The translations under genes were made by a program, and so were the position numbers. Shown here in pieces: positions 26,046-31,728 of a stretch of 64,000 nt of DNA. The notes beneath the pieces are model-generated. The model searched no databases, was not told the DNA's origin, and worked only from the letters and a program-made list of their open reading frames with translations. Where the stretch lies: the NCBI RefSeq assembly GCF_026341515.1, contig NZ_JAPEOK010000001.1:9114001-9178000 (forward strand), in the 5' to 3' direction. Position 1 is the stretch's first letter. The number at the start of each line of letters is the position of its first letter. Source of the stretch: Streptomyces sp. NBC_00878. GTDB lineage: Bacteria; Actinomycetota; Actinomycetes; Streptomycetales; Streptomycetaceae.

Positions 26046-26416
26046 GACCGCCTCCGGGGAGGCGACGGCCGCCCGGGGGTCCGGCGGTCGCCTCCGGCGA
26101 GGTGACCAGGGCGGTCGGTGTCCGGGATCGGAGACCCGGCGGCGGGGCAAGGGCCTCCGTCACCGCCGCCGGGTCGTTCTGGGGACGGGCCGGCGAACGC
26201 GGAGCCCGAAAAGGCATCAGTGAACGCAGACCCTAAAGTGGACTAGACCACAGCGTCAAATAGGTATGGACCAATGGTAAGGCGCCGTGTCCGAACGGTA
26301 GTTGGTCCTTCGTGAGTGTTCAGTGAAGTCCATCTGCACGCCCTGTGAGGCAGCCCACAGCATTCGCCCGCATGGGCGTCGATCAGGCGTGGCACACTGA
26401 GTCTGTACCAGAAGCA
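26046..26416. other. Gap between the ROK gene and the FMN riboswitch
   Basis: About 370 bp without a convincing gene. It holds a dre-like palindrome at 26237-26252 and should contain the promoter of the rib transcript upstream of the aptamer. The stretch 26290-26410 (GTTGGTCCTTCGTGAG... GGCACACTGAGTCTGTACC) is the best place for that promoter, but I cannot mark -35/-10 boxes with confidence. Confidence 0.5.
26237..26252. promoter_or_regulatory. dre-like site (DasR-type palindrome)
   Basis: AGTGGACTAGACCACA matches the recalled DasR-responsive element AGTGGTCTAGACCACT at 14 of 16 positions. DasR is the GntR regulator of N-acetylglucosamine and chitin metabolism. It lies 180 bp upstream of the FMN riboswitch and 190 bp after the ROK stop, so the controlled gene is unclear. 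Confidence 0.45.
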
Positions 26417-26543
26417 GCGCACTCCGGGGTCGGTGAAAGTCCGAACCGGCGGTTACAGTCCGCGACCCGGTCGCTTCCAGCGGCCGGTTGACCAGGTGAA
26501 ATTCCTGGACCGACGGTTAAAGTCCGGATGGGAGGCAGTGCGC
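26417..26543 (+). ncRNA. FMN riboswitch (RFN element)
   Basis: The conserved RFN core is directly readable: GGTGAAAGTCCGAACCGGCGG near 26432-26452 in two halves, then GACCGACGGTTAAAGTCCGG near 26508-26527 and ATGGGAGGCAGTG. The closing stem P1 is formed by GCGCACT (26417-26423) and AGTGCGC (26537-26543), a perfect match. It senses flavin mononucleotide and would repress the rib operon when FMN is high. About 156 nt separate it from the ribE start, enough for an expression platform sequestering the AGGAGG. Confidence 0.95.
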
Positions 26544-26699
26544 GGCGGGCGGGCATTCGTGCGCGCCGCCGTCTGTTTCGACGTGTCCCACGGGCACGTC
26601 CTACTACGCGGCGTCGCCCCCGGTGTCCTCGCTCGCTCATATCTGTCGTCATCGACAGGCCCCGGAGTCCGTGCCCGAAGAGGCAGGAGGACCCGGGAA

Positions 26700-30195: not shown

Positions 30196-31062
30196 ATGCT
30201 GCGCATCGCCGTCCCCAACAAGGGTTCCCTGTCAGGCCCCGCGGGGGAGATGCTGCATGAGGCCGGCTACCAGCAGCGCCGGGAAGCCAAGGAGCTGCGG
30301 ATCGTCGACCCGGAGAACGAGGTCGAGTTCTTCTACCTCCGCCCCCGCGACATCGCGATCTACGTCTCCTCCGGCAAGCTCGACATCGGCATCACCGGCC
30401 GCGATCTGCTCATCGACTCCGGCGCCAACGCGGAGGCCATCCTCCCGCTCGGCTTCGCCCGCTCCACCTTCCGCTTCGCCACCAAGCCCGGCACGGCAGG
30501 CTCCGTCGAGGACCTCGCCGGTATGACCGTGGCCACCTCGTACGAGGGCATCGTCGCCAAGTACCTCGCCGACCACGGCATCGACGCCTCCGTCGTCCAC
30601 CTCGACGGCGCCGTCGAGACGGCCATCGAGCTGGGCGTCGCCGAGGTCATCGCGGACGTCGTCGAGACCGGCACCTCGCTGCGCAACGCGGGCCTTGAGG
30701 TCTTCGGCGAGCCGATCATGAAGTCCGAGGCCGTCGTCATCCGCCGCGCCGGCGCGGCGGCCACCGGAGCCTCCGAGGAAACAGAGCCCAAGGTCCAGCA
30801 GTTCCTGCGCCGCCTCCAGGGAGTCCTCGTCGCGCGGACCTACGTGATGATGGACTACGACTGCCGCGTCGAGCAGCTGGAGAAGGCCGTCGCCCTCACC
30901 CCGGGCCTGGAGTCGCCGACCGTCTCGCCGCTGCACAACGAGGGCTGGGTCGCCGTGCGCGCGATGGTCCCGAGCAAGGAAGCCCAGCGGATCATGGACG
31001 ACCTGTACGACATCGGCGCGCGGGCCATCCTGACCACGGCCATCCACGCCTGCCGCCTCTAA
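30196..31062 (+). CDS. hisG: ATP phosphoribosyltransferase, long form
   Basis: First and feedback-controlled step of histidine synthesis (ATP plus PRPP to PR-ATP). 288 residues, the HisG-long type that carries its own C-terminal ACT-like histidine-binding domain (about 212-285; LTPGLESPTVSPLHNEGWVAVRAMV). The PRPP-binding EVIADVVETGTSLRNAGL is visible. Its TAA overlaps the first base of the hairpin element 31062-31225, so that element is in the 3' untranslated region of this transcript. Confidence 0.95.
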   Translation: MLRIAVPNKGSLSGPAGEMLHEAGYQQRREAKELRIVDPENEVEFFYLRPRDIAIYVSSGKLDIGITGRDLLIDSGANAEAILPLGFARSTFRFATKPGTAGSVEDLAGMTVATSYEGIVAKYLADHGIDASVVHLDGAVETAIELGVAEVIADVVETGTSLRNAGLEVFGEPIMKSEAVVIRRAGAAATGASEETEPKVQQFLRRLQGVLVARTYVMMDYDCRVEQLEKAVALTPGLESPTVSPLHNEGWVAVRAMVPSKEAQRIMDDLYDIGARAILTTAIHACRL

Positions 31063-31225
31063 CGACCTCGGGGGAGATAGGGAGTGGATCAAGGAGTGGC
31101 GTCTGGTGCGTGCGATCGCAAGGCGCCGGGATGTCCTCGTAGCGGAGCTACTAGGGCATTTCGGCAACGCGGCGAGCGTGCGTGCCAGACGCCGCGACGC
31201 CACTCCCTATCTCCCCCGAGGTCGT
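31062..31225 (+). repeat. 164-bp element folding into one long hairpin
   Basis: The ends (31062-31087 and 31200-31225) are a perfect 26-bp inverted repeat. Inside, 31098-31114 pairs with 31177-31193 and 31121-31143 with 31147-31169, closing on a GGA loop at 31144-31146. At least seven inner pairs are G-U when read as plus-strand RNA, so the fold is better as RNA of that strand than as DNA or minus-strand RNA. It lies between hisG and the PH-domain gene. I recall similar sequences in other Streptomyces genomes. Confidence 0.8.
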
Positions 31226-31239
31226 AAGGACCGCCCACC

Positions 31240-31728
31240 ATGTCGGACGCACCAGAGCTGCCCGCTCTTCCCGTCACCTTCCGGCCGGGCCGTACCCGAG
31301 CCGTCCTGCTGACCGCCGGTGCCACGATCTTCGTGGTCATCACCACGGTCGCGATGCTGCTGGAAAAACTCGGCCCGGGGGAACGCAGCAGCTTCGTCTT
31401 CACCGGCGCCCTGCTCTTCGGCGTGCTCGTACTGCTCTCCAGGCCGAAAGTCGTCGCCGACGAGTCCGGGGTCACCGTCGTGAACATCGCCAGCAGCCGA
31501 CGGCTGGCCTGGCCGGAGATCCTGCAGGTCAACCTGCGCCCCGGCGACCCGTGGGTGTTCCTGGACCTCAGCGACGGCACCAGCCTGCCCGCGCTCGGCA
31601 TCCAGCCGGGCATCGCCAAGCAGCGTGCGATCCGCGACGCCCGTACGCTGCGCGCCCTCGCCGAGACCCGCTCCGTCCACGTGCCCGACGGACAGCAGGA
31701 AGACCAGCACGACGAACATCACGGCTGA
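31240..31728 (+). CDS. PH-domain membrane protein
   Basis: 162 residues: a short N terminus, two hydrophobic segments (about 22-42 and 52-67), then a bacterial PH-like domain (VVADESGVTVVNIASSRRLAWPEILQVNLRPGDPWVFLDL) and an acidic, glutamine/histidine-rich tail. Bacterial PH domains of this type are thought to organise protein complexes at the membrane; activity unknown. It follows hisG and the hairpin element, probably on the same transcript if the hairpin does not terminate. Confidence 0.8.
   Translation: MSDAPELPALPVTFRPGRTRAVLLTAGATIFVVITTVAMLLEKLGPGERSSFVFTGALLFGVLVLLSRPKVVADESGVTVVNIASSRRLAWPEILQVNLRPGDPWVFLDLSDGTSLPALGIQPGIAKQRAIRDARTLRALAETRSVHVPDGQQEDQHDEHHG

Follow-up and report, generated by a model that had tools for sequence, protein, structure and literature searches.

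A hairpin MITE in the hisG stop codon of Streptomyces sp. NBC_00878 carries a strand-polar core shared by elements with different ends

The hisG gene of Streptomyces sp. NBC_00878 is followed directly by a long hairpin, several pairs of which are G-U in the RNA of one strand and A-C mismatches in that of the other. The locus raises the question of what this hairpin is and at which level its pairing matters. The window analyzed is the whole stretch of 64,000 nucleotides taken from contig NZ_JAPEOK010000001.1 (positions 9,114,001 to 9,178,000). A first-pass annotation had proposed that the wobble asymmetry marks a structure whose role lies in RNA transcribed in the direction of hisG, namely, a processed 3' UTR, a stable small RNA, or an element propagated by RNA-level selection.

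The plus-strand RNA of 31062-31225 was predicted to form a single rod of -132.1 kcal/mol (z -14.3; none of 200 shuffles was as good), and the minus strand of the same stretch reached -107.4 kcal/mol (z -11.0). As described in the annotation, the outer 26-bp repeats (31062-31087 and 31200-31225) pair without a break in this fold and the loop reads GGA, and an arm scan of the element returned 29-nt arms at 97%. At least seven G-U pairs had been announced; eight were counted in the plus-strand fold, all of them A-C mismatches when read on the minus strand. Folded by itself, the inner hairpin reached -75.7 on the plus and -49.1 on the minus strand. Words akin to the subterminal loop, GGATCAG and GGAGNAAGGAG, are present in other end classes. 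The coordinates of all features are collected in Table 1.

Table 1. Features of the hairpin element and of its surroundings, with positions in the window
Feature	Position	Strand	Basis
Whole element, 162-bp hairpin MITE	31063..31224	+ (the strand with the G-U pairs)	Folds, element-free relatives, other copies
Left copy of the target-site duplication (TSD), TAA, also the hisG stop codon	31060..31062	.	Element-free relatives; TNA duplications of the family
Right copy of the TSD, TAA	31225..31227	.	Element-free relatives
Left terminal inverted repeat	31063..31087	+	Sole site in its own genome at <=3 mismatches
Right terminal inverted repeat	31200..31224	-	Perfect complement of the left repeat
Subterminal asymmetric internal loop, left side (ATCAAGGAG)	31088..31096	+	Fold
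Conserved core hairpin, 98 nt	31098..31195	+	Covarying, strand-polar, common to copies with unrelated ends
G-U pairs	31097/31194, 31107/31184, 31108/31183, 31111/31180	+	Fold
G-U pairs, remainder	31112/31179, 31129/31161, 31130/31160, 31134/31156	+	Fold
Two tandem U-G/G-U steps, 5' side	31107..31112	+	31107-31108 with 31183-31184; 31111-31112 with 31179-31180
Tandem wobble steps, 3' side	31179..31184	+	Core alignment
Conserved inner internal loop, 5' side, AAGGC	31120..31124	+	Alignments A1 (genus) and A2 (outside the genus)
Conserved inner internal loop, 3' side, AACGCG	31166..31171	+	Alignments A1 and A2
Apical GGA triloop	31144..31146	+	Fold; frequent, not universal, in the family
Upstream gene hisG, whose stop codon served as insertion target	30196..31062	+	Open reading frame list; name taken from the first-pass annotation
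Downstream co-directional gene	31240..31728	+	Open reading frame list; relatives

With the downstream gene as query, matches were obtained in 99 of 101 Streptomyces genomes, its own included (98 others), and the best 30 loci were fetched. None of the 29 best-matching relatives inspected has an element behind hisG, and their next gene starts some 11-75 bases on; in the nearest relative (L263) the ATG of the downstream gene lies 13 nt past the hisG stop. The site reads CTCTGAGGAACCGCCCGCCATG in this relative and CTCTAA, element, TAAGGACCGCCCACCATG in the window, and this is most simply interpreted as a 162-bp element at 31063-31224 with a TAA duplication derived from the hisG stop. The hairpin had been said to start at the last base of the stop codon. 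Position 31062 is indeed that base, but the TAA is best read as the TSD and the element proper as starting at 31063. The insertion duplicated the stop codon TAA, which left hisG intact. Judged by the 29 best-matching relatives inspected, the hisG site is a private insertion. Being short, free of a transposase gene, bounded by terminal inverted repeats and a TSD, and known from element-free sites as well as from dispersed copies, the element is a MITE.

The same type of target recurs in the family, since direct TNA duplications (TCA, TGA, TTA, and TAA before GAG ends) were found in 28 of 162 elements, compared with 2.75 expected from a flank swap. Some IS5 groups duplicate TNA. Duplications of the TA class showed no excess in the 162 elements (69 versus 72 in the flank-swap control), and this class is indistinguishable from the control because TA is part of the target and end consensus. 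Neither a TNA nor a TA duplication was seen in 65 of the 162 elements.

The family is large. Using BLAST, a match to the core was found in 122 of 150 Streptomyces genomes, and other core types were found in 307 of 392 and 326 of 393 genomes (the sets overlap); among the matches listed, all named loci retrieved by the core word are Streptomyces. In its own genome, the covariance model placed the core at 26 sites at E <=0.01 (30 rows, of which 4 antisense duplicates were discounted; chance may account for the weakest), and 5 further copies were detected by BLAST or by the end pattern only; these copies have the inner part in common and differ in their arms. Twenty-five plasmid records, all from Streptomyces, match the element in part, none of them over more than 80% of its length, and no phage match to the element was found. 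No Rfam family reached its gathering score for the stretch in the window or for the loci of 7 relatives; the matches below threshold were chiefly eukaryotic miRNA precursors, of which the best reached 55.7 of 168 bits. Elsewhere in the window, the Rfam scan identified an FMN riboswitch at 26415-26545 on the plus strand (98.9 bits).

Individual copies show further peculiarities. Five copies of the own genome (L013, L015, L021, L023, and L027) contain a second palindromic repeat of the GGGGGTCCCCCC type within the stem, with the outer pairing retained. At L002/L029 of the same genome (7873310-7873461), the CTAG target is flanked by a 9-bp inverted repeat, a pattern that resembles an insertion into the loop of a pre-existing hairpin, e.g., a terminator, and some other copies are similar. 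At L236:1862-2251 (G070), the inverted arms around the core measure 169 nt at 96% and reach far into the flanking DNA, a pattern suggestive of strand switching that duplicated one flank on the opposite side, or else of an assembly error.

Clear arms (score >=15) were present in 162 of the 195 loci scored, and the 33 with a lower score were dropped. The ends of 161 of these elements (L236 was left out) fall into 22 clusters by a generous criterion, a figure that replaces the 102 end words, which mix registers and overstate end diversity. In 23 element pairs, the cores are at least 97% identical and the ends, at whatever shift, no more than 55% alike; the pairs include shortened arms (L047, L131, and L196), and L079 and L191 appear to be the same locus, counted twice. 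In the cleanest swap, L192 and L191 are identical at 98 of 98 core bases and have full ends that are unrelated, and in the own genome a set of 10 elements with the end CTTCTGATGGATCTCCG carries two different cores.

Some of these ends can be traced to transposons. At 9 of 56 transposase loci, end words recur as inverted pairs with a spacing of 886-1737 bp; these pairs involve 12 of the 102 end words (a raw count, with <=2 mismatches in 13-15 bases allowed). All 9 loci come from PF13340 (9 of 26), which we take to be IS5-type transposases, and none from PF13359 (0 of 30). Given these inverted pairs at PF13340 loci, at least part of the family ends are, as far as end-word matches tell, ends of IS5-type elements. 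For the ends of the GAGC class, no match was obtained at any of the 56 transposase loci. The end type of the window copy occurs in the genome searched, its own, only as the two arms of this copy, and no partner IS for it was found there. An IS transposase adjoins the core in 9 of 289 core loci, and with so few we claim no autonomous element that bears the core. At L243 (G009), a copy and a PF13340 transposase match are separated by about 100 bp.

The pairing of the core was assessed in alignment A1, which contains 100 cores below 96% identity (3 of 103 representatives were dropped, two with insertions and one short). Over 40 pairs and 100 cores, 3119 cells were Watson-Crick, 691 G-U, 24 A-C, and 161 other, cells not being independent events, and G-U outnumbered A-C in each of the 100 cores; without four wobble-rich pairs, the figures were 325 G-U versus 24 A-C. 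Loci retrieved by an exact 22-base core word (among the matches listed) contributed 43 of the 100 cores, and the 57 cores from outside this retrieval gave 389 G-U and 13 A-C cells (184 versus 13 without the wobble-rich pairs), with all 57 leaning to G-U. As a control, the arms of the same elements in the same orientation showed 32 G-U and 23 A-C among 128 mismatched cells, 73 being neither, in arms that had been chosen for complementarity. The core skew is therefore no general feature of the elements and no artefact of the orientation in which copies were read. The plus-strand fold was the more stable one in 117 of 117 elements.

Double changes were found at 24 pairs of the 100 cores, amounting to 234 cells compared with 52.5 after shuffling, and none of 500 shuffles reached 234. 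Sliding the structure by 1 to 3 columns reduced the paired fraction from 95.4% to 32-46%. Since the cores combine strong covariation with a G-U/A-C skew that the arms lack, the plus-strand pairing of the core is, on this comparative evidence, under selection, and the selected form is most likely RNA. The first-pass annotation had suggested testing genomic copies for plus-strand covariation, which is strong, and had listed RNA-level selection as one option; the family-wide polarity favors selection on the element at a single-stranded, probably RNA, level. Copies in both orientations together with no covariation had been named as the pattern that would speak against a role of the structure; orientations are indeed mixed, and covariation is present.

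The core is also found outside Streptomyces. At a threshold of 1e-4, the covariance model identified it in 25 of 148 genomes of the class, 9 of them Streptomyces and 16 not (among the matches listed), the latter belonging to the families labelled f8, f11, f13, f14, f17, f18, and f26. Most rows inspected contain the internal-loop words, GCAAGGCG on the left and either AACGC.GCGA or AACGC.GCCA on the right; IS-type ends were seen in several of the copies from outside the genus. Alignment A2 covers 12 non-Streptomyces genomes (among the matches listed), whose 48 distinct cores (52 before the removal of one antisense row and 3 repeats) comprised 241 G-U, 13 A-C, and 243 other cells of a total of 1902; 47 of the 48 cores lean to G-U and none the opposite way. 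Double changes amounted to 433 cells compared with 139 after shuffling (49 rows, the antisense one included). A2 was aligned on the model's own structure, and its pair percentages lean toward the model, but its strand is also fixed by the unequal internal-loop words. In some stems from outside the genus, GGAGGAGGAG stands opposite CGACGACGAC (read off the alignment, uncounted), which we read as repeated G-A/A-G steps that would be possible on the plus strand only. One match, L445 in G480, was rejected since it resembles an ordinary coding stretch, and G480 was excluded from further use. In L448 (G447, from another Actinomycete family), ATAGGG..GTGGATCAAGGAGTGG at the left subterminal position comes close to the corresponding sequence of the window copy, in spite of a different outermost end.

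The copies also show a directional bias relative to replication. On chromosome-sized contigs, 80 copies oppose the fork and 37 follow it (p 9e-5), with oriC taken as the contig center, 3 central copies unplaced, one duplicate locus dropped, and G311 and G297 left out because their contigs are shorter than whole chromosomes. The genes in the same loci number 258 with and 195 against. By setting, the copies with and against the fork are 8 and 17 (sense), 9 and 33 (antisense), 10 and 21 (convergent), and 8 and 7 (divergent), and as the bias is seen in sense and convergent settings too, gene direction does not explain it. With one random copy per genome, a mean of 19.3 of 63 lie with the fork (p 0.002 at 19). 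The with-fork copies, a minority to which the window copy belongs, are less stable both in the DNA fold (-84.7 versus -90.9, p 0.002) and in the RNA fold (-157.5 versus -165.8, p 0.003). This weakness affects both strands, and the difference between plus and minus is equal in the two groups (p 0.54 and 0.62). The pattern fits a loss or decay of copies in which the lagging-strand template holds the stabler hairpin; alternatively, it may reflect a preference at insertion or simply age, and the weakness on both strands makes the lagging-strand account only one reading. Transposons that prefer the lagging-strand template do exist, as reported in a paper on IS5 (PMC5493358).

The fork bias, with its presence in sense and convergent settings, is also an argument for the main alternative, a rather unlikely one, in which the plus-strand hairpin would work as single-stranded DNA, for instance at the fork or in transposition, with G-T and G-A pairs and the GGA loop as DNA features. 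G-T pairs in single-stranded DNA would yield the same polarity, a DNA fold is likewise stabler on the plus strand (-69.2 versus -59.6), and the GGA triloop resembles the GNA triloops that are stable in DNA. However, many relatives have a loop other than GNA, the plus strand is the leading-strand template in about two-thirds of the copies and hence the strand least often single, and DDE transposases act on duplex DNA. The latter two points make us favor RNA over single-stranded DNA, neither of them being decisive.

A neutral origin is very unlikely. A palindromic MITE with no function might acquire polarity by strand-biased C-to-T mutation combined with hairpin-templated repair; such repair could hold the arms complementary, and the transcripts of MITEs generally form long stem-loops (PMC2229807). 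In 46 sister pairs, however, GC-GU differences outnumber GC-AC differences by 53 to 8, and AU-GU differences outnumber AU-AC differences by 41 to 7. As the second comparison is skewed like the first, C-to-T bias alone is insufficient, and deamination was ruled out as the sole cause of the polarity. Moreover, repair should erase G-U pairs, but 82-96 of 100 cores retain each wobble of the tandem steps, the arms belonging to these elements are unskewed, and the internal-loop words persist in other Actinomycete families.

A host function of the hairpin within the hisG transcript, as a 3' UTR element or a stable RNA, is highly improbable. The window copy is sense to hisG and to the downstream gene, and many copies lie near gene 3' ends, as 41 of 125 clean intergenic copies are in convergent and 14 in divergent settings (genes were called by codon composition and eye-checked on the window only; 7 of 132 loci without a clean setting were dropped). 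Between co-directional neighbors, however, 45 copies are antisense and 25 sense (p 0.02), from which it follows that flanking transcription usually produces the minus strand and that the plus strand is not kept for lying in a neighbor's mRNA. Of the original proposal, a role at the RNA level is supported to the extent that a real, family-wide, and selected polarity favors a single-stranded, probably RNA, form, whereas the hisG direction is not supported in view of the mixed orientations, nor is a processed hisG 3' UTR, the site being empty in the relatives inspected.

Finally, coding by the core, as a small protein that would start at core residue 9 with the GTG of GGTGCGTGCG, is unlikely. An SD-like AAGGAG precedes the GTG, no stop interrupts the frame in 96 of 100 cores, and 38 sister pairs of 98-nt cores have 67, 99, and 142 changes at codon positions 1, 2, and 3, a weak third-position excess (P ~0.012 in this frame, 0.033 in any phase; column shuffle). 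However, codon changes are 111 synonymous versus 156 non-synonymous with a similar 101 to 157 in a minus-strand frame, 23 of 100 cores deviate from 98 nt (96-101), which shifts the frame, the GTG is lost in many A2 rows, and third positions of the basal stem pair mostly with third positions, so that structure alone could give the pattern.

The explanation that we prefer, with moderate confidence in it as a whole, is that of a non-autonomous element that is moved in trans and contains an end-swapping core that is kept paired on the plus strand and acts as RNA. An IS5-type transposase would move the element via its terminal repeats; in the window, the element inserted into the TAA of the hisG stop and duplicated it. 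The 98-nt hairpin module evolves apart from the ends and has become joined to many end types, and compensatory changes, G-U pairs, and the conserved purine-rich internal loop keep it paired on the plus strand only. Its working form may be the transcribed plus-strand RNA rod, which a conserved protein or RNase of the actinomycetes would recognize. As the copies are not placed sense to genes, the benefit would lie in the element's own spread or tolerance and not with the neighboring gene. The excess against the fork would then be a by-product, the stabler plus-strand hairpin being disfavored on the lagging-strand template. A more far-reaching version, which we put forward tentatively as a possibility, is a mobile structured RNA of the Actinomycetes, i.e., a trans-acting plus-strand module that would use the ends of active IS5-type transposons, exchange these ends, and bind a conserved cellular factor for its own benefit.

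Several known systems are comparable. Bacterial repeat elements of about 100-200 bp whose transcripts are long stem-loops were described by Delihas in 2007 (PMC2229807), and the effect of ERIC on mRNA depends on ERIC orientation (PMC2229807); Correia elements are treated in PMC2649163. Like ERIC, Correia/NEMIS, and YPAL, which are of this size, non-autonomous, and form a long stem-loop, most with terminal inverted repeats and TSD (PMC2229807), the present element is a short MITE; unlike them, it has a single core on many end types, a measured strand polarity, and co-directional copies that are mostly antisense. The likeness to ERIC, Correia, and REP elements is drawn from the literature, the sequence comparison consisting of the Rfam scans only. 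For most members of the IS427 group, 2-bp duplications are reported (PMC3281130). The family shares end sequences and TNA or TA-type targets with IS5-family insertion sequences (IS427 and the TNA-duplicating groups), but the element has no transposase gene, and the perfect 25-base arms of the window copy exceed the similarity between the two ends of an IS (25-base excerpts). REP/BIME elements with RAYT transposases are likewise short intergenic hairpins with strand polarity and many copies per genome, whereas REPs are not known to have the long terminal inverted repeats and direct target duplications seen here. A constant core combined with changing mobilization signals is likewise found in SINEs that have a conserved central domain and exchange their LINE-matching tails; in contrast, the present family is bacterial, has DNA-transposon ends, and is no retroposon.

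The core family appears undescribed in the literature searched, which comprised titles and abstract openings with thin coverage of subscription journals and therefore provides no proof of absence. The main text of a 2024 MITE review (PMC10969869) contains neither Streptomyces nor actinobacteri- as words, and the core family was not found among the stem-loops in the accessible part of a survey of 40 genomes that includes Corynebacterium and Mycobacterium species (PMC1590033).

Bacterial MITEs are usually taken as decayed IS ends, but in this family the interior is conserved and selected, on one strand, and the ends are exchangeable. The fork bias, combined with the weaker hairpins in the disfavored orientation, suggests that lagging-strand hairpin loss may be measurable in genomes that contain natural copies in both orientations. 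If the RNA reading is true, the family would offer a way to test the role of a parasitic hairpin as RNA and would point to an actinomycete factor that reads this hairpin.
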